Source: Ignavibacteriales bacterium
GTDB lineage: Bacteria; Bacteroidota; Ignavibacteria; Ignavibacteriales; Ignavibacteriaceae
Assembly: GCA_015709675.1 (NCBI GenBank)
Contig: CP054182.1
Coordinates: 1,653,448-1,717,447 of the forward strand
Direction of reading: 5' to 3'
DNA length: 64,000 nt
This document shows positions 13,974-60,735 of the stretch, piece after piece. Under the pieces are notes generated by a model. That model searched no databases and was not told the DNA's origin. It was given only the letters and a program-made list of their open reading frames with translations. The position numbers were made by a program, and so were the translations under genes. Numbering within the stretch: the stretch's first letter is position 1; every line of letters begins with the position of its first letter.

Positions 13974-14142
13974 ACTCTGCTCAACACGGAAAAACCTGAA
14001 ATTTCATGCAACAAATATAACCCCGCCAATCAGGAATTGAATCCGGATGCCGGAGGATAACGGATTGAGTTTTTATGTAATTTAGAGTATTAGAAATAAT
14101 CTGCTTTGGCAGTCTGTCACCTTTATGAAAAGGAGAATAATC

Positions 14143-43909: not shown

Positions 43910-46594
43910 ATGTCTGTTGTCGCTAAAATCCTTCTTTTTGACGACGATCTCCGGTCGTTGAGCCTTCTAACAGATGGCCTGGCCGAGCGTGGTCTGATAC
44001 CGGAAATTAAGCCGGTTAAAACCCTTACGGATTTCGTTAATGCGCTTGACGAGTTTAAACCGGAGGCGGTTTTAATCAATTACCGTCAGAGTTCTTATGA
44101 GAGCCTGACAGCCCTGGCTCTTACGCGGAAAAAGAACCCTCTTTATCCGTTTGTATTCATATTTGCGGATGAACCTGTTCATTACCATCTCAAACACCGT
44201 ATATCTTCACAGCTGGCCAACGAAGAATTCCGTACCCTGAGTGAATCAGTTAAAGGCATATTCGATGACATCAGTCAGAGAAAGTCAATGGAACAGCGGC
44301 AGCATCTCGCGGATACCGAACTGGCTCTTGAAAAGGAAAAGGAAGAAGCAGCCCGCGGAATCCTGAAAAGCTCCCCTTCTCTGATTCTTCTTTACGATAA
44401 GGAGGGGAATTATATCGAACGTTATCTTTCCCCCGATTCTCCATTTGCTTATCCTGCGCCGGAATTTTTCGAAAAGAACCTGAATGATATCCTGAACAGC
44501 GGCGATGTCGTAAAAATAAAAGAATTAACAGGCAAAGGTTTTGAGTTCTATGAATTCACAACCGGATCAGGTGCTGATAAACGGGTGCTCATGCTTCAGG
44601 TGCTTACCACCAGCCAGGAGCAGCTGATTCTTTATGTAGCGGATATAACCCGTGAAAGAGCACTTGCAGGTGAACTCCGGAATCTGAAGCAGCTTATCAG
44701 CAGTTCGGCCAGTCAGTATATACTCCTGAACGGATCATGGGGCATTGAGCTGGTTTCACAGGGAATCGAGCAATTCCTTGGATGGGGAGAGGGGATTAAA
44801 AGCAGAAGTATTGATGACCTCCTTCCCGATCTGGTTCCGGGGCTGACCGCCCAGCAGGTCGCTATAGGGCTTGAACTTGATTCATCCTGGACTGAAGTGT
44901 ATCAGTACCGGAGTGAAGATAAAAAAGAAAAGATGGCTGCAGTTTCAGCAAACAAAGTTGAGTCCGGCGGTAACCTTGCGGCAATCCTCATCTCTATAAC
45001 CGATCTTTCGGAGTGGAAAGAACGGGAAAATGAGTTCAGGCTTGATTCCGCCAAGTACCGCGCAATTACGGAAAATCTCAATCTGGGCATTATTGCCCTG
45101 CGCGATCATCGTATATATTACGCGAATGAGTTCTTTTGCAGTCTTCTTGAGATGAAAGCAGAGGCGGTGATAGGATCCGACTTTAACGAAATACTGGTAA
45201 AGGAAGACCGCAAGCTTTTTGAAGATACCGTTCGCACTCTTCTGGCTGAAGAGAGAACCCATTCAGCGGCAGAACTCCGGCTGATGCATGCAAACGGCAT
45301 TAGTGTGGTAAATACGGAAATCTCACTGAAGCTTTCAAAGTTTGACGGTGCATTTACGATATTCTGCGTCATCAAAGATCAGAGTGAAGCTAAGCTTCAC
45401 GCCATGATTGTTGAAAATCAGATTTCCACATCATCCAATCTCAGCCAGACTTCAAGCACTCCTAAAGAGCATGATCTGAGAACTTCCCTTAACGGTATTA
45501 TCGGATTTGCTGAAATTATCAGAGAACATTTTAAGGATAAAAGCGAAGAGGAGTTCCTCAATATCGCTGATCAGATACTGAATAACGGCAAACATCTGAT
45601 GGAGGTGCTGGAACTTGGTCCTTCGCTTGAAACAGCAAAAGGCCAGCCAATGGCACTGGAGATCAACACCGTTCTTCTTTCTGAACTGCTCTCCAAAACT
45701 CTTGAAAGCGTGAAAGGGGGTAGCAGCAAAAAAGAAATCCGGCTGAACTTCCTTTACAGCACAAAAATTGAAGTTCTCGCTGATGAGAAAAAACTGTATC
45801 AGCTGATCCTTGCACTGATAAAGAATTCTTACGACAGTCCGGTTGAAAGCACCATTAACGTTGAGACGGGTTATGACGGGGCTAAAGGAAAAGCGTATAT
45901 ACGTATTAAGGATTCCGGAATCAGGATAGATGAAAAGTTAGTTCCGCTTCTGTTTAAGCCGATGGCAGGTGAAACTTCCAAAAGATATCCTGAACTGTAC
46001 AAACTCGGTGTTATCGTATATCCCGCTCAGCATCTCATCCAGCAGATGAACGGTGAACTTTCAGTACTTTCAAAGGCGGAGACGGGTGTATCGGTCACGG
46101 TCTATCTGCCGGTCCCTGAAAAGAAGGAATCGGCCAAGGTTAATCTGGGCAATTCACTTGTTGCGGTTTCTACCGAGCTGGTGATGCTCACGGAGCTCAA
46201 TCCTGTGATTCTGATCGTGGAAGATGATCCCGGATGCGCAAAGATGCTCCAGATAACATTCAGAAATCTGACAAAAACCGATATTGCGGTTAACGGTGAT
46301 GAAGCTTTGGATTTTATTGCAGGCCGGGCGGCCACCGGGCAGACCTACGATCTGCTCCTGCTTGATATCGGGCTTCCTCCGCCATGGGACGGCATTCTGC
46401 TCAGGAAGGAAATTCTGACACGGTATCCTCAGTATGAGAATGTGCCGATTCTGGCTGAAACCGCTTTTGCTATGAAGGCGGATGTGAGCAGAATCACCGC
46501 GGCTGGTTTTGACGCATATATTGCAAAGCCGATAGACCGGCGCTATCTTATTAAAACGATGGTTGCCGCTCTCAAGAAATATAACCGGCTCTGA
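43910..46594 (+). CDS. PAS-containing hybrid sensor with degenerate receiver and degenerate ATPase domain
   Basis: The 894-residue cytoplasmic protein starts with a receiver-like domain (acidic Asp11-13), but the phosphoacceptor position is Asn57 (VLINYRQSS). Three PAS-like regions follow (about 145-245, 255-365, 375-500). A HisKA-type H-box with His521 (EHDLRTSLNGIIGF) comes next, then a HATPase-like domain. This has an Asn-box (ALIKNSYDS) but only DSGIRID in place of DxGxG, and no GLGL box (LGVIVYPAQH instead). The chain ends in a normal receiver with Asp819 (LLLLDIGLP) and KPID. It may therefore take phosphate from another kinase more than make it. It stands alone behind the terminator, and no membrane helix is present. 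Confidence 0.8.
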   Translation: MSVVAKILLFDDDLRSLSLLTDGLAERGLIPEIKPVKTLTDFVNALDEFKPEAVLINYRQSSYESLTALALTRKKNPLYPFVFIFADEPVHYHLKHRISSQLANEEFRTLSESVKGIFDDISQRKSMEQRQHLADTELALEKEKEEAARGILKSSPSLILLYDKEGNYIERYLSPDSPFAYPAPEFFEKNLNDILNSGDVVKIKELTGKGFEFYEFTTGSGADKRVLMLQVLTTSQEQLILYVADITRERALAGELRNLKQLISSSASQYILLNGSWGIELVSQGIEQFLGWGEGIKSRSIDDLLPDLVPGLTAQQVAIGLELDSSWTEVYQYRSEDKKEKMAAVSANKVESGGNLAAILISITDLSEWKERENEFRLDSAKYRAITENLNLGIIALRDHRIYYANEFFCSLLEMKAEAVIGSDFNEILVKEDRKLFEDTVRTLLAEERTHSAAELRLMHANGISVVNTEISLKLSKFDGAFTIFCVIKDQSEAKLHAMIVENQISTSSNLSQTSSTPKEHDLRTSLNGIIGFAEIIREHFKDKSEEEFLNIADQILNNGKHLMEVLELGPSLETAKGQPMALEINTVLLSELLSKTLESVKGGSSKKEIRLNFLYSTKIEVLADEKKLYQLILALIKNSYDSPVESTINVETGYDGAKGKAYIRIKDSGIRIDEKLVPLLFKPMAGETSKRYPELYKLGVIVYPAQHLIQQMNGELSVLSKAETGVSVTVYLPVPEKKESAKVNLGNSLVAVSTELVMLTELNPVILIVEDDPGCAKMLQITFRNLTKTDIAVNGDEALDFIAGRAATGQTYDLLLLDIGLPPPWDGILLRKEILTRYPQYENVPILAETAFAMKADVSRITAAGFDAYIAKPIDRRYLIKTMVAALKKYNRL

Positions 46595-46683: not shown

Positions 46684-49600
46684 ATGATTAAGCGATTTTT
46701 AGTTATCGTGCTGATGATGGTGCTCTCCATCTCATGTAATGAAGACACCACCGTCGGGCCGGAAACCCCCGGGGGGGGGACAACCGTCAGTATTATCCTC
46801 CTTGCTCCTGCCGGAGGGGAATCCTATAAGGCTGGTGAATCGAGACCAATCCGCTGGACAAGCAATACCACGAATAATATAAAAATTGAGTTCAGCTCAG
46901 ACGGCGGAACCACTTTTCAGACCATTGCCGCTTCAGTGGCGAATCTTGGTATATATAACTGGACCGTTCCGAACACTCCCTCAGCAATCTGCCTTATCCG
47001 TGTTTCCGATGCCTCAAATGCTTCCGTTAACGACGTAACCGATAATTTTTTCTCGATAGTTACCAATGTTCAGAAAACCCTTACGCTCATCCGGCCAAAC
47101 GGCGGCGATACCCTGATTGCAGGAAGCAGTTATCAGGTACAGTGGACCTCAGCCAATGTTGCAAATGTATCCCTTTCCTGGTCTTCTGATAACGGGGTTT
47201 CCTGGAATGTTATTGCAAACAGTTACCCCGCAGACTCAGCTAAGTACACCTGGTCACCGGTGCCTAATATTATTTCCTCTGACTGCAGATTTAAGATTAC
47301 TGAAACCGGAACCGATACCGTTGCCGATGTAAGTGAAAACCGGTTCACCATACGTAACTCACAGGCGGTTACGGTGCTCTCTCCCAATTCCGGTGAGACT
47401 CTCATTAAAGGTTCATCTCATATTATTTCATGGACCGCGACCGATATCAGCAGTGTTAAGATTGAATACTCAACCAATGACGGCAGTACCTGGAGCACGA
47501 TAACTGCTTCGACAACCAATGACGGAAGTTTTGACTGGAATCCGATTCCGAATATATCAACAGATCAGGCAAGAATCAGAATTTCCGATGCCGCTGACGG
47601 AACGCCATTTGATTTATCAGACGGTCCTTTTTCTATTGCTGACCAGCCGTCAATTTCAGTGCTTACTCCGGGCAATGGTGAGACTCTTACCGCCGGATCA
47701 AGGGTAAGCATTACCTGGAGTTCAACCGGAAAATCTTCCCGGGGTGAGGACGAAGTACGCGTGAATAAACAGGGAAATCAGTCTCTGGTTAATAACGTAT
47801 CAATTGCATATTCAACCAATAACGGAGTTTCCTGGATAAGTATCGTCTCCAGTATTCCGAATACCGGAAGTTATTCATGGGATCCGGTGCCAAATACCGT
47901 TACATCAACCGGCAAGATTCGTGTACGTGATGTATCAGACTCAACAGTATTCGGACTGTCACCCGGCAGCTTTTCCATTGTTCCGGCTCCGGTGAAATCT
48001 GTTACGGTACTTACACCAAACGGAGGTGAAGTCTGGGGTGCAGGTACAGATCAGTTTATCACGTGGAATAGTTCAAACATTACCTACGTAAGAATCGAAT
48101 TAAGCACAAACGGCGGACAATCATGGTCCACGCTTGCCAGCAATATTGAGGCATCAAACGGTTCGTATGCCTGGCTCGGAATTCCGAGTACCCCTTCTCA
48201 AAACTGCAAAATCAGAATCAGCGAAAGTCCGGTTGCATCGGTAACAGATCAGAGCGATAATGCGTTTACCATCGCACCGCAGCAGTATATAACGCTTACG
48301 GCTCCAGACGGCGGTGAGGTTCTTACCACGGGAGGCAGTTCCAATATAACCTGGGTTTCAGAGAATATTGAAAATGTAAAATTAGAATACACAACCAATA
48401 ACGGTTTTACCTGGAGTGTTATTACCAACTCAACCGAAAGTGACGGATTCTTTACCTGGACACCGGTACCGGAAGTGTTTTCCACGAACTGCAGAGTAAG
48501 AATCAGTGACGCTTCAGACGGAGTGCCCTCTGACGTGAGCAATGGTATATTCAGCATTCTTGCAGAACCGGAGATAAAGGTTACTGCTCCGAACGGCGGC
48601 GAGAGAATTCAGTCCGGCTCAGTATATGAAATTAAGTGGGTTACCAGCACTCCCGGCGGCAGCGCGAGAAGCAGCAGAAGAAACACCGTAAAGGAAAATG
48701 ATAATCCGGGCGTGCAGAATGTCCGTATAGAGTTTTCAACCGACGGCGGCGCTGTATGGAGCAATATCACTGCATCCGTGCCGAACAACGGCGTATATAT
48801 CTGGAATCCGGTCCCGAATATCAGTTCAGCCCTCTGTAAAATCAGAATCAGTGATGCTGCTGACGGATATCCGACCGATCAGTCTGACTCGGCATTTGTT
48901 GTGTTTAATCAGAGCGTACAGCAAATTACTATCACCGCGCCAAACGGCGGCGAACAGTTAACAGCCGGAGGAGTGACCGGTATATCCTGGACTTCAACCG
49001 GTGTATCTGCCGTTAACATTGAGTTTACCACTAATAACGGCGTGAACTGGTCATCAGTTGCTGCCAATATCCCAAGCACCGGTTTTTATTCATGGAATCC
49101 GGTTCCTGTTGTTTCATCCAATAACTGCCGTATCCGCATCAGTGATGCAGTTGACAGCATACCTTCGGTCACAAGCGCATCAACATTCACCATACTGCCG
49201 CAGCCGACCGTATCAGTTCTTTCTCCAGCGGGCGGTGAGGTTTTATACAGCGGAACAACACATACCATACGCTGGACAAGTGAAGGGCTGCCTAAGGTAA
49301 AACTTGAACTCACTACCAATAATGGTTCTGCATGGACGGTGATTACAGACAGCACCGAAAGTGACGGTTCCTATGAATGGACCGTTCCTTCTCTGGCTTC
49401 ATCACTTTGTAAAATCCGTGTGAGCGCCCCTCAGGGAGGAATACCCTCATCAGTTTCCAATGCGGTATTTACCATCACGAATACCCTGCCTCAGAGCATT
49501 CAGGTAGTAAAGCCGAATGGCGGCGAAACATTTTATGCCGGTGTTCCTAATCAGATAACCTGGAATAGTTCAGGTGTTGATACCGTAAAGATTGAATATT

Positions 49601-52600
49601 CAACCAATAACGGCGTAAACTGGCTGACTGTAGTTAATAAAACCGCGAGCAGCGGATCATATATATGGTCAAATCTGCCTGCACTTACCTCCGCAAACGC
49701 GAAAATCCGCATCAGTGATGCCGCAGACGCCACTCCTTCAGATGAAAGTGATGCAGTATTCACCATAGCTGTTGAGCCTCAGTTACAGGTGACCTCGCCA
49801 AACGGCGGAGAAAGTATTCTGGCCGGTTCGGCTTATGCCATTACCTGGAGTACCATTCTTTCTAAATCAGCTGAAACGATCACTGCGGTAAATATTGAAT
49901 TTTCGACTGATGCCGGGCTGAACTGGTCGCAGCTTGCCCAGTCAGTTCCGAATACAGGAACGTATAGCTGGAACCCGGTTCCGAATATCTCTAGCACAAC
50001 CTGCCGTATTAAAATCAGTGATGCGGCTGACGGAGTGCCGGCGGATATGTCAGACAGCAATTTTACCGTATATAACGTATCCCTGCAGAGTATTACTGTT
50101 ACCGCGCCAAACGGCGGTGAAGTTCTTCAGCCGGGTTCAAGTTTTAATATTACCTGGAACAGTTCAGGTATCTCATTTGTCAATATCGAGCTGACAACCA
50201 ACAACGGACTCAACTGGAGTACAATTGCAGCCAATACAGAAAGTGACGGATTCTTCCAGTGGGTTCCTGCTTCAACTATTGCCTCAACAAACTGTAAAGT
50301 GAGAATTTATGACGCTGTTGACAGTCTACCGGTTGATGAGAGCAATGCAACGTTTACGATACTGCAGTCACCAACCGTAACGGTGCTTTCTCCAAACGGC
50401 GGTGAGCAGCTTACAGCAGGAGCTCCCTATCTGATTCAGTGGAACTCTCAGAATATCGGCGCCGTAAAGATTGCATTCTCCTCCAATAACGGTGCAACGT
50501 GGAATTCCATAATTGACAGTACCGAGAGTGACGGCCAGTATATATGGACGGTTCCGAATGTAAGTTCAGCACTCTGCAAGATCAGAATCAGCAATCAGAC
50601 AGACGGATTCCCGCAGGATGAGTCGGATAACAGTTTCTCCATAACTACGGCTTCACCTCAGAGTATTACGGTCACCTCTCCGAATGGCGGTGAGAACTAT
50701 TCCGCCGGTTCGGCACAGGTGATTAACTGGACCAGTTCCGGAGTTGATTCTGTCAAAATAGAATATACAACGAACAACGGTGTTAACTGGACAGTCATAG
50801 CCGGAAGTACCGAAAGTGACGGTTCGTATTTGTGGAGTCCTCTCCCTTCTGTTACATCTGCTAATATGAAGGTAAGAATCAGCGATGCATCAGACGGAGT
50901 TCCTTCAGATGAGAGTGACGCAGTATTCAGTATAGCGCCTGATCCGGTCATTGCCGTACTTTCACCGAACGGAAGTGAAATCTGGAGGACCGGTTCAGTT
51001 GAAAATATAACCTGGAATTCCTCGAATCTTGACAGTGTCAGGATAGAGTTTACCACCAATAACGGAGCAACCTGGACTCTTATTGCCGCAAAAGCTCCTT
51101 CTTCAGGTATATATCAGTGGACTATTCCGAATCTGAACTCACAGCTCTGCAAAGTGAGAATCAGTGATCCTGCTGACGGCGTACCGTCAGACATCTCTGA
51201 TGATAATTTTATCATTACATCTGCAGTTCTTCAGAGTATCTCCGTAACAAAACCAAACGGCAGTGAGATAATCACCTCAGGTGTGCCTTACGAGATTACC
51301 TGGAACAACAGCGGACTTGACAGCGTAAAGATTGAGTACACCACGAACAACGGCCAGACCTGGTCAACCATAGTGAGCGGTACTCAGCCGGACGGTTCAT
51401 ATTTCTGGACAACTGTTCCTGCAATCAACTCATCAAACGCAAAGATCAGGGTATCTGACGCGTTTGACGGAACTCCGGTTGACGAAAGTGATGCGGTATT
51501 CACCATCCGAACAGAGCCTACCCTGACCCTTACTGCTCCGAACGGAGGAGACAGCATTCTTGCCGGGTCAGTATATACCATCACCTGGTCAACACTGCTT
51601 AATAGAAACATTGAATCAGTTACCGCGGTAAAGCTTGAGTTCTCAACTGATGCAGGCCTGACCTGGAGTCAGATAGCCGCTTCTGCTCCGAACACGGGCA
51701 GCTATAGCTGGAATCCGGTACCGAATGTATCAAGCACCACCTGCCGGATCAAGATCAGCGATGCACAGGACGGAGTGCCTGCGGATATGTCTGATAACAA
51801 TTTTACGGTGTATAACGTCTCGCTACAGACCATAACGGTCAATACGCCCAACGGCGGAGAAATTATCCAGCCGGGCAGCACATTCAATATTACCTGGTCG
51901 AGCAGCGGAATTGCAAATGTAACAATCGAACTGACCACCAATAATGGACTCACCTGGTCATCCATCGTGAGCAATACCCCAAGTGACGGACTGCATCCCT
52001 GGACCCCTGCTTCGGGTATCTCTTCCACAAACTGCAAAATCAGGATTTATGATGCAGCCGACAGCATTCCTTCAGATGCAAGCAATGCCGCGTTTACAAT
52101 TATCTCCTCACCAGCATTGAATATTCTTTCCCCGAATGGCGGAGAAGTATATACATCAGGAAGCCAGCAGACGGTAACCTGGACATCGCAAAATGTCGCG
52201 AATGTTAAGATTGAGTTTACTTCAAATAACGGTGCAACCTGGGATGAAGTGATTGCCTCGACACCGAGTGACGGAGTGCATCAGTGGACCGTTCCTGCCG
52301 GAATCAGTTCTGTGCTTTGCAAAATCCGGGTCACTGATGCGGTGAACGGCAGTCCCTCTGATGTTTCTGAAGAGGTGTTCACTGTTGTTCCTGCTCAGAG
52401 CGTAACAGTTACCTCGCCAAACGGAGGGGAAACGCTGATTACCGGAACCAATCAGGTAATTACCTGGACCAGCACAGAGATTGACTTTGTAAAGATTGAA
52501 TATACAACCAACAACGGAGTCAACTGGACTGCCATCTCGGCAAGCACGGAAAGCGACGGATCCTATCTGTGGAGTCCGGTGCCATCAGTGATAACGACTA

Positions 52601-55600
52601 ATGCGAAGATCAGGATTAGTGATGCCTCTGATGGAACACCAGCTGATCAGAGCGATGCTGTGTTCAGTATATCAGCAGATCCGGTGGTAGAAGTAATTTC
52701 ACCAAACGGGGGTGAAACCCTTCTGACCGGAGCGGTGCAGAATATCCTCTGGAGTTCATCAAATCTTGATAATGTTAAGATTGAGTTCACCACCAACAAC
52801 GGTTCAAGCTGGACGGTCATCGCTGCAACCACACCTTCAACCGGTACCTATGCATGGACCGTACCAAATGTAAACTCACTGCTCTGTAAAGTAAGAATAA
52901 GCGATCCTGCAGACGGAGAGCCGTTTGATATATCCAACGGCAGCTTTACGATAAGCAATGTTCCGGTTCAGACGGTAAGAGTAAGTTCACCAAACGGCGG
53001 TGAAACTGTTACATCAGGCATTCCATACGAGATTACCTGGAACAACAGCGGATTGGACAGCGTAAAGATAGAATACAGCACAAACAATGGCCAGACCTGG
53101 TCAACCATCGTGAGCGGAACACAGCCGGATGGTTCATACTTCTGGACAACTGTTCCAACAATCAACTCATCAAACGCAAAGATCAGAGTATCTGACGCAT
53201 TTGACGGAACTCCGGTTGACGAAAGTGACGCAGTGTTCAGCATTACAACTGAACCAACACTGCAGCTGACAGCGCCAAATGGCGGTGAAAGTATTTCAGC
53301 CGGTTCTGTCTATACCATAACCTGGACAACTCTGCTCAGCAGGATGACGGAAAATGTAACAGCCGTGAAACTTGAATTCTCAACTGATGCAGGCCTGACC
53401 TGGAGCCAGATAGCTGCATCCGTACCTAATACCGGCAGCTATAGCTGGAATCCGGTACCAAATGTATCAAGCACCGCATGCCGGATTAAAATCAGTGATG
53501 CTGTTGACGGATCACCGGCGGATATGTCCGATAATAATTTTACCGTATATAATGTAGCGCAGCAGTCAGTAACCGTTACGGCACCAAACGGCGGTGAAAT
53601 TATTCAGCCGGGAAGCACCTATAACATTACCTGGTCAAGCAGTGGTATATCATCGGTCGGAATACAGCTCACCACGAATAATGGTCTGACATGGAGCACC
53701 ATAATTAGCAGTACCGAAAGCGACGGTTTCTATCAGTGGGTTCCGGCATCCAGCATTGCATCCACCAACTGCAAGGTTCGGATTTATGATGCTACGGACA
53801 GTCTGCCGGTAGATGAAAGCAATGCATCCTTTACTATACTTGCTTCACCTGCAGTTACGGTTCTCACCCCAAATGGCGGTGAAGCGCTGAACTCCGGTTC
53901 ACAATATGCTATAACCTGGAACTCTCAGAGCATCGAAAAGGTGAAGATTGAATTTACCTCGAATAACGGTGCATCGTGGACTTTCATTGATTCTGTAACC
54001 AGCAACGGTCAGTATCTCTGGACGGTACCTGCTGTTACTTCAGTTCTTTGTAAAATACGGGTGAGCGATCTTGCCAACGGCTTCCCGCAGGATGTTTCGG
54101 ATGAAGTGTTCTCCGTAACCACTGCGGCTCCGCAAAGTATTGCAATAACTTCACCAAACGGCGGAGAGGTTCTCGCTTCAGGAGCGAACCGCCTGATAAG
54201 CTGGACAAGCAGCGGTGTGGATTTCGTAGAAATCGAATATACTACAAACAATGGTGTGGACTGGAATACGATTACCGCTATAACCGAGAGTGACGGTGCT
54301 TATTTATGGAGTCCGGTACCTTCAGTTGTAACTAATAATGCACGCATCAGAATTTCTGACGCTGCTGACGGAACACCGGAAGATCTGAGTGATGCAGTAT
54401 TCAGCATAGCACCTGATCCGGTGGTAGAAGTAATTTCACCAAACGGAGGTGAGACGCTTCTGACCGGAGCGGTGCAGAATATACTTTGGAGTTCCTCAAA
54501 TCTTGATAATGTTAAGATTGAGTTCACCACCAACAATGGTTCAAGCTGGACTGTTATAGCAGCAACCACACCTTCAACCGGTACATACGCATGGACCATA
54601 CCGAATGTTAACTCACTGTTGTGCAAGATCCGCATCAGCGATCCGGCCGATGGAGAGCCATTTGATATATCCAACGCTACATTTACGATCAGTAATGTAC
54701 CTGTTCAGACAGTAAGAGTTTCCTCACCCAATGGCGGAGAGACAGTAACTTCCGGTATTCCTTATGAGATTACCTGGAACAACAGCGGCCTTGACAGCGT
54801 AAAGATTGAGTACACCACGAACAACGGCCAGACCTGGTCAACCATCGTGAGCGGAACTCAGCCGGATGGTTCCTACTTCTGGACGAACGTTCCTGCAACT
54901 AATTCTTCAAATGCAAAAATCCGCATTAGCGACGCAGCGGACGGCACACCAACCGATGAGTCTGATGCAGTATTCACCATCAGAACCGAACCGACACTTA
55001 CCCTGACTGCACCAAACGGTGGTGACAGTATCCTTGCAGGATCTGTATATACTATCACCTGGTCAACAGCCCTGAGCAGAATGACCGAAAGCGTAACTGC
55101 GGTTAAGCTTGAGTTCTCTACAAACTCAGGACTGACGTGGAGCCAGATTACAAACTCAGCACCAAATACCGGCAGTTACAGCTGGAACCCGGTGCCTAAT
55201 GTCTCCAGCACAACCTGCCGCATCAAGATCAGTGATGCCGAGGACGGAACACCTGCTGATATGTCCGATAATAACTTTACGGTGTATAATGCAGTCCAGC
55301 AGTCAGTAACGGTTACTGCTCCGAACGGCGGAGAGATTATTCAGCCGGGCAGTACCTTTAACATCACCTGGTCAGGCAGCAATATATCAAATGTCGCAAT
55401 TCAGCTGACCACAAATAATGGCCTGAACTGGAGCACTATAGTAAGTTCAACTGAAAGTGACGGCTTCTATCAGTGGGTTCCTGCTTCTAACATAGCATCA
55501 ACAAACTGTAAGATCAGAATCTATGATGCAACCGACAGTCTGCCTGTTGATGAGAGTGATGCATCATTCACAATACTTTCTTCACCTGCGGTTACGGTTA

Positions 55601-58600
55601 TTTCACCAAACGGGGGAGAATCGCTAAACTCCGGATCTCAGTACACAATTAACTGGAATTCCCAGAGTATTGAAAAAGTAAAAATCGAGTTCACTTCTAA
55701 TAATGGAGCATCATGGAGTTTTGTTGATTCTGTGACCAGCAGCGGCCAGTATCTCTGGACCGTTCCGGCAGTAAGTTCTGTTCTCTGCAAGATCAGAGTA
55801 AGTGATCTGACTGACGGATTCCCCGTGGATGTCTCAGATGAAGTATTCTCTGTTTCTACGGCCGCTCCTCAGAGCATTGCTGTTACATCACCGAACGGCG
55901 GAGAAGTTCTCTCCTCTGGTGCAAACCGACTGATAAGCTGGACCAGCAGCGGAATTGATTTTGTTCAGTTAGAATATACAACTAACAACGGTGTTGACTG
56001 GACAACGATCACCGCAAGCACTGAGAGTGACGGTGCTTATTTGTGGAGTCCTGTGCCTTCAGTTGTAACGAATAACGCACGCATCAGAATTTCTGACGCA
56101 GCGGATGGTTCGCCTGAAGATCTCAGTGATGCAGTATTCAGCATTGCTCCTGACCCGGCTGTTGAAGTTCTCTATCCTGACGGCGGTGAAACTTTCCTGT
56201 CCGGATCAGTGCAGAATATTTTATGGAGTTCATCAAATCTTGATAATGTTAAGATTGAGTTCACCACCAACAACGGTTCAAGCTGGACGGTCATTGCGGC
56301 AACCACACCATCAACCGGTACCTACGCATGGACCGTACCGAATGTAAATTCACTGCTCTGTAAGATCCGCATCAGCGATCCTGCAGACGGCGAACCGTTT
56401 GATATATCTAACGGCAGCTTTACGATAAGCAATGTTCCGGTTCAGACGGTAAGAGTAAGTTCACCAAACGGCGGTGAAACTGTTACATCAGGCATTCCAT
56501 ACGAGATTACCTGGAATAACAGTGGACTTGACAGCGTAAAGATTGAGTACACCACAAACAACGGCCAGACCTGGTCAACCATCGTGAGCGGTACTCAGCC
56601 GGACGGTTCATACTTCTGGACAACTGTTCCTGCAATCAACTCATCAAACGCAAAGATCAGAGTATCTGACGCGTTTGACGGAACTCCGGTTGACGAAAGT
56701 GATGAGGTATTCACCATCAGAACAGAGCCTACCCTGACCCTTACTGCTCCGAACGGAGGAGACAGCATTCTTGCCGGGTCAGTATATACCATCACCTGGT
56801 CAACACTGCTTAATAGAAACATTGAATCTGTTACCGCGGTAAAGCTTGAGTTCTCAACTGATGCAGGCTTGACCTGGAGTCAGATAGCCGCTTCTGCTCC
56901 GAACACGGGCAGCTATAGCTGGAATCCGGTGCCGAATGTATCAAGCACCACCTGCCGGATCAAGATCAGCGATGCACAGGACGGAGTTCCTGCGGATATG
57001 TCTGATAACAACTTTACGGTGTATAACGTCTCCCTTCAGACCATAACGGTTAATACACCCAACGGCGGAGAAATTATCCAGCCGGGCAGCACATTCAATA
57101 TTACCTGGTCGAGCAGCGGAATTGCAAATGTAACAATCGAGCTGACCACCAATAATGGTCTCACCTGGTCATCCATCGTGAGCAATACCCCAAGTGACGG
57201 ACTGCATCAGTGGGTTCCTGCTTCAGGTATTTCCTCAACAAACTGCAAGATCCGTATATATGACGCGTCTGATAATACACCGGTTGATGAAAGTAACGCG
57301 GCATTTACCATTATCTCTGCACCGGCAGTATCAGTTCTTTCACCTAACGGCGGAGAGCAATACAGCGCGGGATCAAGCCAGCTGATTACCTGGAACTCTC
57401 AGGGCATTGAAAAGGTGAAGATTGAATTCACCTCCAACAACGGTGCATCCTGGACCTTTGTGGATTCTGTTACCAGCAATGGCCAGTATCTCTGGACCGT
57501 GTCATCCGTAACTTCGTCACTTTGCAAAATCAGAATAAGCGATCTGACAAACGGATTCCCGGTTGATGAATCAGACGAGGTATTCTCCATCGCTACCTCA
57601 TCACCGCAGAGCGTTACGGTAACATCTCCAAACGGTGGTGAGACCTATGCTTCCGGTTCAAATCAATTTATCGCATGGACCAGTTCCGGAGTTGATTCCG
57701 TAAAGATTGAATATACAACCAATAACGGAGTAGACTGGACAACCATTTCAGCAGGAACCGAAAGTGACGGCTCCTACCTCTGGACCCCGGTGCCGTCTGT
57801 TCAGACTAACAACGCGAAGATCAGAATTTCTGATAAATCAGACGGCGCTCCTTCTGATGAAAGTGATGCTGTCTTTAGTATAGCCCCGAATCCGTTTGTA
57901 ACCGTCACCGCGCCGAATGGTGCTGAATCACTTATAGGCGGAAGTGATTATATCATCAGATGGACATCCGGTAATCTTGCAAATGTGAGAATTGAGTTTA
58001 CTTCTGATAACGGAGCTTCCTGGAATACTGTTATCGCATCAACCGCCTCTACCGGCAGTTATGTCTGGACAGTGCCAAATGTGACCTCTGAACTCTGTAA
58101 AATCAGGATAAGCGATCCGGCAGACGGTGAACCCCAGGATATATCTGACAATATGTTCAGTATATCAGTAACATCACCGCAGACAATTACGGTAACCGCG
58201 CCCGATGGCGGTGAATCATTCCCGACCGGCTCAAGTCAGGTTATTACCTGGACGAGCACCGGTGTAAGCAATGTGGAGATTGAATACACTACCAATAACG
58301 GTGTAAGCTGGACAACTATTACCGCTTCTACCGAAAGTGACGGATACTACGTATGGAACTCAATTCCTGCTGTTACTTCGAATAACTGCAAAATCCGTAT
58401 ATCCGATGCCGCAGACGGAACTCCATCCGATGAGAGTGATGCGGTCTTCAGTATTGCGCCGGAACCAGCCATCACCGTCTTCACGCCAAATGGCGGTGAA
58501 TTATGGTCGTTCGGTACATCGCAGGCTATTACCTGGTCGTCTGAGAATCTTGAGAAAGTGAAGATTGAATTCACCACCAATAACGGATTCACCTGGACGA

Positions 58601-60735
58601 CAATCGTTGACAGCTTAGCTTCGACAGGCACCTATAGCTGGAGTATTCCGAATCTGAATTCATCACTCTGCCGTGTCAGAATCAGTGATTATGCGGACGG
58701 TGTACCTTTTGATATATCAAACAATAACTTTACGCTCACTAATCAGATTCAGCAGACGCTTACGGTTACCTCACCAAACGGCGGTGAAAGCTTTGAGTCC
58801 ACCTCATCGCAGAGTATAACCTGGCTGAGCGCTGCAGTGAATAAAGTAAAAATCGAATATACCACCAATAACGGCCTGACGTGGCTGGTGATAGTTGACA
58901 GTACTGAGAGCGACGGACTTTATGAATGGAATCCGCTGCCTTCTGTAACTTCAACCCTCTGCAAAGTAAGAATCAGTGATCTTGCTGACGGTTCGCCAGT
59001 TGATGAAAGTGATGCTGCTTTCTCTATTACTCCGGTTAAGTCAATTACCGTAACATATCCTAACGGCGGTGAAAACCTTATTGCCGGAACGCTCTATAAT
59101 ATTACCTGGACTTCGCAGGGTGTCAGCAATGTGCGCATCGAATACCGTATAGGCAATACCGGTGATTATGAAGCGATTGTTGAAAGCACGCCAAGTGACG
59201 GAAGTTATGAATGGAGTCCGTCTATACCGGCATCGTTCTATAAACTGCGCATCAGCAATGCAGAAGGTACCATTCCTTCAGATGAGTCAAACGGTACATT
59301 CACTGTCCTTGATGAACCGTCAATTAATCTTCTGACTCCTGACGGCGGACAGTCACTGATTGCCGGTGAGCAGTATAATATAACGTGGATATCAGAAGGC
59401 CTCAGTAATGTTAGCATCGAACTAACTACCAATAACGGTGCATCATGGACTGTTATCGTTGACAGCACCGAGAGTGATGGTATATACACATGGACGGTAG
59501 ATACCGTTAACTCGGCACTGTGTAAAATCAGAATAAGTGATGAAGCAGACGGCCTGCCTGCTGACCAGTCAGCAGCGGTATTCCAGATTTCACCTGCTAT
59601 AACACAAAGTGTAACAGTGACCTATCCAAACGGCGGTGAAGCGCTGCCGGCGGGAAGTGCCGCGAATATTACCTGGATCAGCACCGGTATTGATTCTGTT
59701 AAGATAGAATACTCAACCAATAACGGCCAGAACTGGATTACCGTCAGTTCAGGAGTCTCAGCCAGCGGTATCTATAGCTGGAATCCTGTGCCTGCAACCA
59801 TTTCTGGTAACTGCCTTATCAGAATCAGCGATAAGAATGACGGATTCCCGTTTGATATGAGTGACGGTGTGTTTAGCATTACTTCCGAGTCAGCAATCAG
59901 AGTACTTTCGCCGAACGGAGGAAATAACTTCCTTGCCGGAACCTCACAGCAGGTTCGCTGGACTTCACAGAATGTGACTAATGTGGATCTCCACTATACC
60001 ACGAATAACGGCGCCTCATGGGATACGATCAGAACCGGCATCCCGAGTTCAGGTGTATATATCTGGAGCATTCCTGCCGGACTGAATACCGAGCAGGGCA
60101 GAGTTCGCGTCCGTGATGCTGCAGACGGCAGCCCGTTTGACGAATCCGACTCGAACTTTACGATTGCTTCTGATCCGTATATCAGGGTAACATTCCCGAA
60201 TGGCGGGGAGTTTATCGTCTCTGATACGGTTATTACGTGGATATCCGTTGGAGTGCAGAATGTTAACATTGAGTATTCGCTGGATAACGGCGTAACCGGA
60301 TGGAATACAATTGTGGCCAATACCCCATCAACCGGCGCTTACCGCTGGACATATATTGGCCAGCTTTCTGCCAATGCTCGAATAAGGATTACTTCAACGG
60401 CTGATGCTTCTATCAGTGATATGAATGATGCTCCTTTTAATATCGGATTTGACTACGGCAGACCGGTTATCCTGAATTCAGCAAGCGAAGTCTGGAATCA
60501 GAATGAATCATATAATCTGCGCTGGATGTCTGAAACCGCCGGCGCGGTGAAGATTGAATACTCATCCGATAACGGAATGAACTGGAATGTTCTTGCTGAA
60601 CGCTATGACTCCAAGTCAGGCGAGAACAGCTTTGCAGCAGAGCACCGTTCGTTCAGCAGCAGGCGCGTTCTCTTCAGGATTACCAATCTTGAAAGAGGCC
60701 TTACATCAGTTAGTCCGCCTGTTGAGTTAAAATAG
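46684..60735 (+). CDS. Giant repeat lipoprotein of about 48 Ig-like (Kre9/KNH-type) domains
   Basis: A single uninterrupted ORF of 4,683 residues. A lipoprotein signal (LSISC, Cys18) is followed by a short Gly/Thr linker and about 48 repeats of 90-110 residues. Each repeat has SPNGGE, ITW, VKIEYTTNNG..W, SDG.Y.W and KIRISDA.DG.P.DESD. This pattern matches the Ser-Thr-rich Kre9/KNH-type beta-sandwich. Domains of residues 933-3828 form five super-repeats of six domains (DNA periods 1,740, 1,737, 1,737, 1,737 and 1,737). Many domains keep one Cys at the same strand position. Three positions carry charged inserts (domains 4 and 7, and a shorter one in each B-type domain). The last domain is divergent and may be a cap. 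No T9SS domain is present, so export to the surface probably uses the lipoprotein route. A stalk or adhesin role is inferred. Confidence 0.9.
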   Translation: MIKRFLVIVLMMVLSISCNEDTTVGPETPGGGTTVSIILLAPAGGESYKAGESRPIRWTSNTTNNIKIEFSSDGGTTFQTIAASVANLGIYNWTVPNTPSAICLIRVSDASNASVNDVTDNFFSIVTNVQKTLTLIRPNGGDTLIAGSSYQVQWTSANVANVSLSWSSDNGVSWNVIANSYPADSAKYTWSPVPNIISSDCRFKITETGTDTVADVSENRFTIRNSQAVTVLSPNSGETLIKGSSHIISWTATDISSVKIEYSTNDGSTWSTITASTTNDGSFDWNPIPNISTDQARIRISDAADGTPFDLSDGPFSIADQPSISVLTPGNGETLTAGSRVSITWSSTGKSSRGEDEVRVNKQGNQSLVNNVSIAYSTNNGVSWISIVSSIPNTGSYSWDPVPNTVTSTGKIRVRDVSDSTVFGLSPGSFSIVPAPVKSVTVLTPNGGEVWGAGTDQFITWNSSNITYVRIELSTNGGQSWSTLASNIEASNGSYAWLGIPSTPSQNCKIRISESPVASVTDQSDNAFTIAPQQYITLTAPDGGEVLTTGGSSNITWVSENIENVKLEYTTNNGFTWSVITNSTESDGFFTWTPVPEVFSTNCRVRISDASDGVPSDVSNGIFSILAEPEIKVTAPNGGERIQSGSVYEIKWVTSTPGGSARSSRRNTVKENDNPGVQNVRIEFSTDGGAVWSNITASVPNNGVYIWNPVPNISSALCKIRISDAADGYPTDQSDSAFVVFNQSVQQITITAPNGGEQLTAGGVTGISWTSTGVSAVNIEFTTNNGVNWSSVAANIPSTGFYSWNPVPVVSSNNCRIRISDAVDSIPSVTSASTFTILPQPTVSVLSPAGGEVLYSGTTHTIRWTSEGLPKVKLELTTNNGSAWTVITDSTESDGSYEWTVPSLASSLCKIRVSAPQGGIPSSVSNAVFTITNTLPQSIQVVKPNGGETFYAGVPNQITWNSSGVDTVKIEYSTNNGVNWLTVVNKTASSGSYIWSNLPALTSANAKIRISDAADATPSDESDAVFTIAVEPQLQVTSPNGGESILAGSAYAITWSTILSKSAETITAVNIEFSTDAGLNWSQLAQSVPNTGTYSWNPVPNISSTTCRIKISDAADGVPADMSDSNFTVYNVSLQSITVTAPNGGEVLQPGSSFNITWNSSGISFVNIELTTNNGLNWSTIAANTESDGFFQWVPASTIASTNCKVRIYDAVDSLPVDESNATFTILQSPTVTVLSPNGGEQLTAGAPYLIQWNSQNIGAVKIAFSSNNGATWNSIIDSTESDGQYIWTVPNVSSALCKIRISNQTDGFPQDESDNSFSITTASPQSITVTSPNGGENYSAGSAQVINWTSSGVDSVKIEYTTNNGVNWTVIAGSTESDGSYLWSPLPSVTSANMKVRISDASDGVPSDESDAVFSIAPDPVIAVLSPNGSEIWRTGSVENITWNSSNLDSVRIEFTTNNGATWTLIAAKAPSSGIYQWTIPNLNSQLCKVRISDPADGVPSDISDDNFIITSAVLQSISVTKPNGSEIITSGVPYEITWNNSGLDSVKIEYTTNNGQTWSTIVSGTQPDGSYFWTTVPAINSSNAKIRVSDAFDGTPVDESDAVFTIRTEPTLTLTAPNGGDSILAGSVYTITWSTLLNRNIESVTAVKLEFSTDAGLTWSQIAASAPNTGSYSWNPVPNVSSTTCRIKISDAQDGVPADMSDNNFTVYNVSLQTITVNTPNGGEIIQPGSTFNITWSSSGIANVTIELTTNNGLTWSSIVSNTPSDGLHPWTPASGISSTNCKIRIYDAADSIPSDASNAAFTIISSPALNILSPNGGEVYTSGSQQTVTWTSQNVANVKIEFTSNNGATWDEVIASTPSDGVHQWTVPAGISSVLCKIRVTDAVNGSPSDVSEEVFTVVPAQSVTVTSPNGGETLITGTNQVITWTSTEIDFVKIEYTTNNGVNWTAISASTESDGSYLWSPVPSVITTNAKIRISDASDGTPADQSDAVFSISADPVVEVISPNGGETLLTGAVQNILWSSSNLDNVKIEFTTNNGSSWTVIAATTPSTGTYAWTVPNVNSLLCKVRISDPADGEPFDISNGSFTISNVPVQTVRVSSPNGGETVTSGIPYEITWNNSGLDSVKIEYSTNNGQTWSTIVSGTQPDGSYFWTTVPTINSSNAKIRVSDAFDGTPVDESDAVFSITTEPTLQLTAPNGGESISAGSVYTITWTTLLSRMTENVTAVKLEFSTDAGLTWSQIAASVPNTGSYSWNPVPNVSSTACRIKISDAVDGSPADMSDNNFTVYNVAQQSVTVTAPNGGEIIQPGSTYNITWSSSGISSVGIQLTTNNGLTWSTIISSTESDGFYQWVPASSIASTNCKVRIYDATDSLPVDESNASFTILASPAVTVLTPNGGEALNSGSQYAITWNSQSIEKVKIEFTSNNGASWTFIDSVTSNGQYLWTVPAVTSVLCKIRVSDLANGFPQDVSDEVFSVTTAAPQSIAITSPNGGEVLASGANRLISWTSSGVDFVEIEYTTNNGVDWNTITAITESDGAYLWSPVPSVVTNNARIRISDAADGTPEDLSDAVFSIAPDPVVEVISPNGGETLLTGAVQNILWSSSNLDNVKIEFTTNNGSSWTVIAATTPSTGTYAWTIPNVNSLLCKIRISDPADGEPFDISNATFTISNVPVQTVRVSSPNGGETVTSGIPYEITWNNSGLDSVKIEYTTNNGQTWSTIVSGTQPDGSYFWTNVPATNSSNAKIRISDAADGTPTDESDAVFTIRTEPTLTLTAPNGGDSILAGSVYTITWSTALSRMTESVTAVKLEFSTNSGLTWSQITNSAPNTGSYSWNPVPNVSSTTCRIKISDAEDGTPADMSDNNFTVYNAVQQSVTVTAPNGGEIIQPGSTFNITWSGSNISNVAIQLTTNNGLNWSTIVSSTESDGFYQWVPASNIASTNCKIRIYDATDSLPVDESDASFTILSSPAVTVISPNGGESLNSGSQYTINWNSQSIEKVKIEFTSNNGASWSFVDSVTSSGQYLWTVPAVSSVLCKIRVSDLTDGFPVDVSDEVFSVSTAAPQSIAVTSPNGGEVLSSGANRLISWTSSGIDFVQLEYTTNNGVDWTTITASTESDGAYLWSPVPSVVTNNARIRISDAADGSPEDLSDAVFSIAPDPAVEVLYPDGGETFLSGSVQNILWSSSNLDNVKIEFTTNNGSSWTVIAATTPSTGTYAWTVPNVNSLLCKIRISDPADGEPFDISNGSFTISNVPVQTVRVSSPNGGETVTSGIPYEITWNNSGLDSVKIEYTTNNGQTWSTIVSGTQPDGSYFWTTVPAINSSNAKIRVSDAFDGTPVDESDEVFTIRTEPTLTLTAPNGGDSILAGSVYTITWSTLLNRNIESVTAVKLEFSTDAGLTWSQIAASAPNTGSYSWNPVPNVSSTTCRIKISDAQDGVPADMSDNNFTVYNVSLQTITVNTPNGGEIIQPGSTFNITWSSSGIANVTIELTTNNGLTWSSIVSNTPSDGLHQWVPASGISSTNCKIRIYDASDNTPVDESNAAFTIISAPAVSVLSPNGGEQYSAGSSQLITWNSQGIEKVKIEFTSNNGASWTFVDSVTSNGQYLWTVSSVTSSLCKIRISDLTNGFPVDESDEVFSIATSSPQSVTVTSPNGGETYASGSNQFIAWTSSGVDSVKIEYTTNNGVDWTTISAGTESDGSYLWTPVPSVQTNNAKIRISDKSDGAPSDESDAVFSIAPNPFVTVTAPNGAESLIGGSDYIIRWTSGNLANVRIEFTSDNGASWNTVIASTASTGSYVWTVPNVTSELCKIRISDPADGEPQDISDNMFSISVTSPQTITVTAPDGGESFPTGSSQVITWTSTGVSNVEIEYTTNNGVSWTTITASTESDGYYVWNSIPAVTSNNCKIRISDAADGTPSDESDAVFSIAPEPAITVFTPNGGELWSFGTSQAITWSSENLEKVKIEFTTNNGFTWTTIVDSLASTGTYSWSIPNLNSSLCRVRISDYADGVPFDISNNNFTLTNQIQQTLTVTSPNGGESFESTSSQSITWLSAAVNKVKIEYTTNNGLTWLVIVDSTESDGLYEWNPLPSVTSTLCKVRISDLADGSPVDESDAAFSITPVKSITVTYPNGGENLIAGTLYNITWTSQGVSNVRIEYRIGNTGDYEAIVESTPSDGSYEWSPSIPASFYKLRISNAEGTIPSDESNGTFTVLDEPSINLLTPDGGQSLIAGEQYNITWISEGLSNVSIELTTNNGASWTVIVDSTESDGIYTWTVDTVNSALCKIRISDEADGLPADQSAAVFQISPAITQSVTVTYPNGGEALPAGSAANITWISTGIDSVKIEYSTNNGQNWITVSSGVSASGIYSWNPVPATISGNCLIRISDKNDGFPFDMSDGVFSITSESAIRVLSPNGGNNFLAGTSQQVRWTSQNVTNVDLHYTTNNGASWDTIRTGIPSSGVYIWSIPAGLNTEQGRVRVRDAADGSPFDESDSNFTIASDPYIRVTFPNGGEFIVSDTVITWISVGVQNVNIEYSLDNGVTGWNTIVANTPSTGAYRWTYIGQLSANARIRITSTADASISDMNDAPFNIGFDYGRPVILNSASEVWNQNESYNLRWMSETAGAVKIEYSSDNGMNWNVLAERYDSKSGENSFAAEHRSFSSRRVLFRITNLERGLTSVSPPVELK
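46771..46779 (+). repeat. Homopolymeric G9 tract inside the giant lipoprotein gene
   Basis: Nine G follow five C directly (46766-46779) and encode Gly30-Gly32, twelve residues after the lipobox Cys. Loss or gain of one base would shift the frame at the very start of a 14-kb gene. Such tracts are typical sites of slipped-strand switching. Confidence 0.6.
49480..58167 (+). repeat. Five tandem six-domain super-repeats within the giant gene
   Basis: Units start at 49480, 51220, 52957, 54694 and 56431 and end at 58167. They are 1,740 bp and then four times 1,737 bp. In each unit the six domains appear in the same order: WNNSGLD-type; B-type with a short insert before VKLEF; IIQPGS-type; a SPAVTVL-type ending in DVSDEVF or similar; VTSPNGG-type; and a DP-x-V type ending in SNGSFTI or similar. 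Similarity between matching domains of different units is far higher than between neighbours. Confidence 0.9.

Follow-up and report, generated by a model that had tools for sequence, protein, structure and literature searches.

The window analysed here, a 64,000-nt stretch covering positions 1,653,448–1,717,447 of the forward strand of contig CP054182.1 (Ignavibacteriales bacterium, GCA_015709675.1), contains an intact gene for a 4,683-aa protein that consists almost entirely of Ig-like domains of the Kre9/KNH type (PF10342; Table 1). The whole protein scores 320.9 bits against this family, where the cut-off is 24.6, and all 19 single PF10342 places listed in the genome fall within this one gene, 12 of them above the cut-off (two of these with neighbours). 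We divided the protein into 48 domains (d01–d48), 45 via a motif and three by hand. Residues 1–18 fit the prokaryotic lipoprotein pattern, as do the starts of 21 of the 42 arrays of the family with an intact 5' end (a count in which two records are entered twice, one fitting and one not). An NCBIfam search returned three families, each far under its cut-off, and a check for fibrillar-adhesin features found the stalk-like array and, in the list of six Pfam families, none that is adhesive.

The AlphaFold model of a domain pair contains strands only (mean pLDDT 96.4) and predicts a beta-sandwich fold with confidence (best Foldseek E 2.5e-8). Its best solved matches are FnIII-like, namely 3pdd and the titin A-band pair A77-A78, which tie at Z 10.2 (for titin, rmsd 4.0, 174 aligned), a level of resemblance that does not demonstrate common descent. 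Searching solved structures by sequence produced no convincing match: seven sequences came back up to E 10, the best being Reelin at 0.011. The six-domain model, built from a seven-row alignment, reached a pTM of 0.33, so prediction lends no support to the hexamer as a stiff rod. We also considered and discarded d48 as a conserved C-terminal cap, since its best terminal relative scores 43 bits against up to 39.7 for internal domains; d48 is highly divergent, with a terminal branch of 9.78 in the domain tree.

Table 1. Coordinates of the gene and its features within the window
Feature	Position	Strand	Basis
Gene, 4,683-aa protein of 48 Kre9/KNH-like Ig domains	46684..60735	+	intact ORF, ATG start; PF10342
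Signal peptide, lipobox-type end, residues 1–18, Cys at 18	46684..46737	+	lipoprotein pattern
N-terminal flank, d01–d09, without six-fold order	46786..49491	+	lag identity; d01–d07 collinear with G032/G007
d07–d10, read as remnant of an earlier four-domain unit (B-like, C-like, D/F-like, A/E-like)	48568..49776	+	nearest relatives
Unit 1, d10–d15, 1,740 bp, most divergent	49492..51231	+	66–67% DNA identity to units 2–5
Unit 2, d16–d21, 1,737 bp	51232..52968	+	unit comparison
Unit 3, d22–d27, 1,737 bp	52969..54705	+	unit comparison
Unit 4, d28–d33, 1,737 bp	54706..56442	+	unit comparison
Unit 5, d34–d39, 1,737 bp, last domain d39 divergent	56443..58179	+	unit comparison
Homogenised tract 1, unit 2 copy, domains A to C	51274..52020	+	716/747 identical, partner 5,211 bp downstream
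Homogenised tract 1, unit 5 copy	56485..57231	+	96% identity to unit 2 copy
Homogenised tract 2, unit 2/3 junction, F into A	52720..53230 (ends approximate)	+	473/511 identical
Homogenised tract 2, unit 4/5 junction	56194..56704 (ends approximate)	+	93% identity, 3,474 bp apart
C-terminal flank, d40–d48	58180..60732	+	d40–d45 collinear as set with G032/G007 domains

Six-domain order within the gene

The central 30 domains, d10–d39, form five tandem units (U1–U5) of six domains each, designated A to F. The preliminary description had proposed such units, as a second level of periodicity inside a coding gene, at 49480–58167; this is the same array four codons out of phase with ours, which begins with d10 at residue 937, and the periodicity is real. 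Mean protein identity between domains six apart is 0.78 within d10–d39, against 0.45–0.50 at lags of one to five (neighbouring domains average about 46%). When the 30 array domains were shuffled 5,000 times, the best lag mean was at most 0.633 (z 14.3), and shuffling all 48 domains gave a maximum of 0.522 against an observed 0.633 (z 17.4; 5,000 shuffles). The nearest relative lies at a multiple of six for 28 of the 30 array domains, the exceptions being d10 and d39, and for one of the 18 flanking domains; none of the 48 is nearest to an adjacent domain, whereas grouping with immediate neighbours would have spoken against a higher-order unit. Domains are closer to those one unit away than to their neighbours, as in multi-domain super-repeats of the titin and nebulin type. 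Tandem Repeats Finder reported nothing, although with a longest period of 500 it tests for repeats of single domains only.

In the domain tree, class A (support 96/75) and classes B and C (100/97) each form one clade, class E does so only at a support of 40/0, and classes D and F need two changes each, with d19 and d39 straying and d41 joining F. The array decays at its edges, divergence being greatest in unit 1 and in the final F domain. Just upstream of and into unit 1, the nearest relatives of d07, d08 and d10 lie four domains further on, and in two related genomes, G032 and G007, B-slot domains likewise stand at index 7 and 11, and again at 15, which is tetramer spacing.

Divergence and mosaic tracts among the units

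The units are old. They are 66–79% identical in DNA, so that 21–34% of bases differ, and across the ten unit pairs dN is 0.07–0.27 and dS 0.81–2.69; in almost all pairs the silent sites approach or exceed saturation, while the protein has been conserved under purifying selection (dN/dS well under 1). The closest pair, U3-U4, is adjacent (78.8% DNA identity and the lowest dN, 0.07), with the distant pair U2-U5 barely behind it at 77.7%. With the U3 hexamer as reference, U4 is 88% identical, U2 79%, U5 78% and U1 69%. The longest exact repeat measures 109 nt anywhere in the gene and 41 nt at a lag of one unit.

Against this background, two sub-unit tracts stand out, both joining units that are not adjacent, and it is in such tracts that recent exchange is visible. 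Inside tract 1, third positions of U2 and U5 agree at 216 of 230 codons for the same residue, compared with 102 of 205 downstream and 12 of 18 upstream; by the same measure U1 agrees with the other units at between 188/383 and 202/389. Tract 2 is bordered by 60-nt windows of 0.63–0.72 identity before it and 0.65–0.70 after it. A longest-run test was matched in none of 5,000 shuffles for three of the ten pairs (U2-U5, U2-U4 and U3-U5), a result that conversion and local duplication would produce alike. The tracts look like gene conversion or rearranged duplication, and not like current gain or loss of 1.7-kb units.

This bears on the possibility, which we regard as unlikely, that the gene is a satellite-like array whose whole 1.7-kb units are being gained and lost today by unequal crossing over, with strains differing in length. 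Five units in register, an adjacent closest pair and array lengths that differ among genera would all suit it, and F(U4)-A-B-C(U5) resembles F(U2)-A(U3) plus A-B-C(U2), as a single crossover in the A domains of U2 and U3 would produce. At the same time, the low identity of the units, their saturated silent sites, the shortness of the exact tracts and the linking of non-adjacent units by recent similarity all argue against it. The growth by unequal exchange of about 1.7 kb put forward in the preliminary description is not borne out in that form: pairwise dS values of 0.8–2.7 place whole-unit growth in the distant past, and it is not a continuing process. The likeness to alpha-satellite organisation drawn there holds for pattern (a multimer unit, edge decay, homogenisation) and fails for identity: higher-order units of the alpha-satellite type are near-identical, and these are not.

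It is far less probable still that each domain arose by a duplication of its own and that selection, by requiring six domain types in set positions, produced the six-fold order. Strong purifying selection and the extra length of the domain in each B position of the array (103 aa) could be read that way, but the silent-site tracts continue in register from one domain into the next (F into A; A to C). Duplication of DNA spanning several domains accounts for this and selection at the protein level does not, and on this ground we reject single-domain duplication.

Corresponding proteins in related genera

We surveyed ORFs of at least 500 aa with at least seven domain hits at loci L021–L044 and L055–L094, in a set of one genome per species, leaving out L030 (the same gene as L093), L078 (a 100-base piece), L091 and L092. 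This yielded 51 arrays including that of the window, or 49 after removal of the duplicate records L073 and L083; L115–L117 were examined apart. The window array has the strongest order among the 49. Nineteen of them touch a locus end, which is a true contig end in 16 cases and only a locus border in L034, L035 and L093. Copy numbers in L021, L025, L027, L040, L115 and L116 are lower bounds, since these arrays run off contig ends. Assembly error, in which the assembler would have multiplied or reordered units, is the least credible explanation of all: the 16 truncated arrays show that such genes do give assemblers trouble, yet the window units differ at hundreds of positions (21–34% of bases) in a frame open throughout, exact repeats do not exceed 109 nt, the genome is a single contig, and order of this kind, built on different unit sizes, occurs in other genomes.

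Corresponding proteins within the Ignavibacteriales have similar flanks and other units, with tetramers in G032 and G007 and pentamer blocks elsewhere; dimers occur in further arrays of the family. Both unit size and the choice of repeated block vary between genera. G032 and G007 share d01–d07 with the window protein as a set (set tests, p 0.0001–0.0005), within which d04 and d05 are poorly ranked (32 and 19 of 48 in L021; 37 and 21 in L025) and d07 is middling (ranks 9 and 12, respectively). For d40–d45, set tests gave p ≤0.0017 with domains 18–23 of L021 and 3–8 of L027, and p up to 0.008 with a second copy in L027; L024 domains 9–16 match d40–d47 (0/10,000 in both set tests). Matches were borderline for L021 24–28 with d41–d45 (p about 0.05), weak for L027 14–16 with d46–d48 (p 0.03, 0.16), weak at best for L039 with d01–d05 (p 0.34, 0.04) and absent for L040 and L029 with d01–d05 (p 0.46–0.88). 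Fragments from G095 carry tetramer-spaced domains followed by d40–d44, plus a duplicated pentamer resembling d05–d09.

Before a joint tree was computed, long-branch and flank rows were removed (8 of 48 window, 5 of 28 L021 and 5 of 18 L025 domains). In this tree, the window B and C copies form clades of their own (SH-aLRT 99 and 96) nested among the same-slot domains of G032 and G007, the window E and A domains group with the relatives' E slot (84), and four of the five window F domains group with W41 and L021_19 (85).

Over the stretches read, neither G007 nor G032 shares the gene order around the array, and orthology is therefore argued from domain collinearity alone. A conserved pairing with the upstream histidine kinase was considered and set aside: in a search of 10 genomes, with 4.4–5.1 kb read around the kinase relatives (L052–L054), the best of these (in G007, G032 and G027) have no such domain nearby, though the G007 and G032 contigs end about 230–260 bases past the kinase, so that a pairing may still exist there. 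By eye, the G007 stretch after the kinase contains a tRNA-like sequence. The single same-genus genome, G001 (88% complete), yielded no array; its contig ends inside the upstream gene, and close relatives of the kinase and the downstream amylase gene did not turn up there either, so that the absence may be only apparent.

Proposed origin and comparison with known systems

From the observed periodicity, its age, the mosaic tracts and the relatives' differing unit sizes, we consider the following account likely as a whole. The gene would encode a lipoprotein of great length that is probably exposed at the cell surface, where its Ig-like domains would form a bead-chain stalk, perhaps with a role in adhesion. 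The middle part of the protein expanded in frame as blocks of several domains were duplicated in tandem, presumably through homologous recombination. The hexamer looks like an ancestral tetramer (B C D E) to which a dimer was added (F resembling d41, A resembling E), the insertion step resting on the joint-tree branches of 84–85, and in the order of duplications that we infer, the six-domain block would then have been copied to five units. The units have long since drifted apart at silent sites, with purifying selection acting on the protein, while gene conversion or a later rearrangement would have carried sub-unit tracts between units that lie far apart. In relatives, different parts of the corresponding protein were expanded, as tetramers and pentamers. 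A point against this account is that U3-U4, the closest pair, is adjacent, as simple neighbour duplication would predict.

Among the closest known systems, titin is likewise a giant chain of Ig/FnIII-type beta-sandwiches with a fixed multi-domain pattern in tandem (seven domains in the D-zone and 11 in the C-zone; PMC5648799), whereas the window protein is a bacterial lipoprotein with one domain family in five hexamers. Nebulin has seven-domain units, and multi-domain duplication is known generally from a survey of ten eukaryotes, seven bacteria and seven archaea (Bjorklund et al. 2006, PMC1553488), in which such repeats are mostly eukaryotic and bacterial Ig-like repeats are named as grown through internal duplication. 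In those cases, as here, several domains are added at once in mid-array and unit sizes vary within a family; different here are the other unit sizes repeated by related genera and the re-copied tracts visible at silent sites. Periscope Proteins, sought by at least 80% identity between repeats over 50 residues, are also bacterial surface proteins with a stalk of repeated domains, in their case of changeable length (PMC8201768). Here, unlike there, neighbouring domains are 46% identical and units 66–79% identical in DNA, and of the hexamers compared with U3 only U4 (88%) would pass. The surface proteins Giant1–5 of Apilactobacillus kunkeei are also extracellular and very large, and intragenic recombination has shaped them too, but exchange here is among units within one gene, and the authors of that study saw no sign of recent conversion between the giant genes (PMC12863079).

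The array is a clean bacterial case, in a giant Ig-like protein, of the multi-domain duplication known from titin and nebulin. No title on these Ignavibacteria proteins appeared among the matches listed from the open-licence literature (the best 3–15 of up to 1,031 per listing), which is weak evidence that none exists. One of the matches listed, PMC12419801, contains both 'ignavibacteri' and 'giant protein'.

Related genera with matching proteins of other unit sizes make it possible to study what determines unit size, what keeps a long repeat gene from collapsing, and whether a neighbour identity of about 46% protects both folding and genetic stability. By analogy with titin, it is conceivable, if doubtful, that the six-domain block with its longer B domain serves as a ruler, a selected spacing unit, with genus-specific blocks of four, five or six domains that arose as each genus re-duplicated its own portion of a single ancestral chain and that gene conversion keeps alike; we know of no partner filament with a matching repeat. 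If that were true, the matched flanks would make unit size and number readable as an evolving length code for a surface fibre.

Six-domain order in the giant protein

The genome holding the giant gene is a single contig of 4.21 Mb. The encoded protein begins with a lipoprotein-type signal whose cysteine is at residue 18 (residues 1-18 fit the prokaryotic lipoprotein pattern), followed by 48 domains (d01-d48), mostly of 95 or 96 residues, of the Pfam family Kre9_KNH (PF10342). Domains d10-d39 run through six classes (A-F) five times over, giving units U1-U5 of 1,740, 1,737, 1,737, 1,737 and 1,737 bp. The second-level, six-domain periodicity claimed in the preliminary description is borne out: mean identity between domains six places apart (lag 6) is 0.78 vs 0.45-0.50 for lags 1-5, with a maximum of 0.633 among domain-order shuffles. 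The closest relative lies at a multiple of six for 28 of the 30 array domains, while grouping with immediate neighbours was looked for and not seen, an adjacent domain being the closest relative in 0 of 48 cases. The domain tree resolves A, B and C each as one clade, E as one only at support 40/0, and D and F as not quite clades. At the same time, lags 2 and 4 are a little high (0.49-0.50), and between-class identity is highest for A-E (mean 0.57), then A-C and D-F (0.51), which suggests a fainter two-domain layer beneath the six-domain one.

Features of the window, with positions and particulars
Feature	Position	Particulars
Giant gene	46684-60735 (+)	ORF, 4,683 aa
Tract 1, U2 and U5 copies	51274-52020 and 56485-57231	identical at 716/747
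Tract 2	U2/U3 junction vs U4/U5 junction	identical at 473/511
Hybrid histidine kinase	43910-46594	PAS and receiver domains; same strand as the giant gene, ends 89 bases before it
Repeat protein	14125-16542	seven carboxypeptidase-regulatory-like repeats; type IX secretion C-terminal signal (Por_Secre_tail)

A modelled pair of domains is all beta (mean pLDDT 96.4), and its top solved-structure matches are FnIII/Ig-like domain pairs, titin A77-A78 included; matches of a predicted structure at such similarity tell fold, not function. In a six-domain model the domains are confident (mean pLDDT 87.7) and their overall arrangement is undefined (pTM 0.33). Matches to 2-hydroxyacid dehydrogenase and chitobiase C-terminal families were set aside, no stretch passing alone. 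With a lipid anchor at its N-terminus, a body of chained Ig-like domains and no credible catalytic family, the protein may be a surface stalk or adhesin-like fibre. Only on the boldest reading would the near-constant spacing, with a longer domain every sixth place, point to a ruler or to a surface that binds periodically.

Old units and re-copied tracts

Across the ten unit pairs DNA identity is 66-79%, dN 0.07-0.27 and dS 0.81-2.69, indicating old units maintained by purifying selection. Adjacent U3 and U4 form the closest pair overall (78.8%), with the distant U2-U5 just behind (77.7%). Two stretches of the array, tracts 1 and 2, are not old. At same-residue codons, third positions within tract 1 agree at 216 of 230, while outside it U2 and U5 agree at 102 of 205 downstream and 12 of 18 upstream; U1 compared with the other units gives 188/383 to 202/389. 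Silent-site run tests returned 0/5,000 for U2-U5, U2-U4 and U3-U5, were marginal, given ten tests, for U4-U5 (best segment p 0.007), U2-U3 (0.02) and U1-U5 (0.02), and gave no signal in U3-U4 (0.11) or the other three U1 pairs (0.17 or more). The tracts would be directly accounted for by gene conversion acting on units far apart. Alternatively, they may derive from crossing over in the A domains of U2 and U3, with the product then transferred; the stretch F(U4)-A-B-C(U5) does resemble such a product.

That arrays can grow by several domains at a time is established (PMC1553488); well-known cases are nebulin, with a seven-domain pattern, and titin, with patterns of 7 and 11 domains (PMC5648799). 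Periscope Proteins (PMC8201768) were sought by repeats of at least 80% identity, whereas the window's array falls below 80% at the domain level. We therefore class the array with the multi-domain expansions already known; what is distinctive is its unusually clear order and visible re-copying.

Arrays in relatives and the gene neighbourhood

Relatives of unit 3 lie at four loci of named genomes, three in Ignavibacteriaceae/Ignavibacteriales MAGs and one in a Bacteroidetes MAG. A unit-length query had matches in 56 of 59 genomes, and among 80 genomes of the family a two-unit query matched 17 strongly (E up to 1e-100); both counts include the window's own genome. Among 49 distinct arrays, 16 of which reach a contig end, order is far stronger in the window's than in any other (z 17.3). 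Twelve others, five reaching a contig end, attain the lowest p available (1/501); their best lags are 2, 4, 5 or 8, and some are only faintly ordered. Three very long arrays of 44-52 domains (L026, L031 and L032, the last outside the twelve) have best-lag vs overall means of 0.42 vs 0.39, 0.39 vs 0.35 and 0.33 vs 0.29, so length alone brings no strong higher-order repeats.

These three loci (genomes G007, G053 and G037), only faintly periodic, fail to match the lipobox pattern; their C-terminal stretch resembles a type IX secretion signal by eye. Although the rest of the L032 array has diverged, its domains 25 and 27, two positions from each other, have the same protein sequence; they are separate stretches, not a single hit counted twice. 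At L070 (G008:C43) near-identical single domains stand in a run (0.91 over five neighbouring pairs), a style of growth opposite to that by multi-domain blocks, within the same family.

The closest relatives of the histidine kinase in the other searched genomes have only about 30% identity, and no such Ig-like domain was found in the DNA stretches examined around them. No array was recovered from the same-genus genome G001, but its completeness is 88%, the contig stops inside the upstream gene, and the neighbouring genes are missing as well.

Corresponding proteins and the size of the amplified block

Proteins of G032 and G007, two genomes of one other genus (g7), match d01-d07 and d40-d45 of the window as sets; that of G032 (L021) runs for 28 domains up to the contig end, and that of G007 is L025, with L027 its probable other end. 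In the loci read, the window's gene order is not shared with either genome, and the genes that flank the giant gene (peptidase and RNase R upstream, UPF0047 and amylase downstream) are present there with no array beside them; the corresponding proteins may therefore be old paralogues that moved.

Longer domains at index 4 and 7, and one of 103 residues at index 11, are common to all three proteins. The B-slot domain that follows, however, stands at index 15 in G032 and G007 vs 17 in the window, making the g7 unit a tetramer. In a combined tree the B copies and the C copies of the window each form a clade nested in one with g7 same-slot domains; E and A both fall beside the E slot of g7, and four of the five F domains beside d41 and L021_19 (branch values 84-85 for both placements). 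Because of these A/E and F placements we read the hexamer as tetramer B C D E plus dimer F A, that is, as a tetramer that would have been enlarged by a dimer.

Other blocks are seen elsewhere. In the C-terminal piece of G007 a block like d40-d45 recurs at lag 5; in G033 (L040, G033:C11) a pentamer matching d40-d44 makes up domains 5-19 as three units (mean identity 0.70 at lag 5) before a contig end interrupts the array; and G095 has a d05-d09-like pentamer in duplicate, plus tetramer spacing. Unit size can vary inside one family, according to PMC1553488. With tetramers in g7 and pentamers in G033 and G095, the amplified block thus differs between genera, and this difference is the chief addition to the earlier account of the array.
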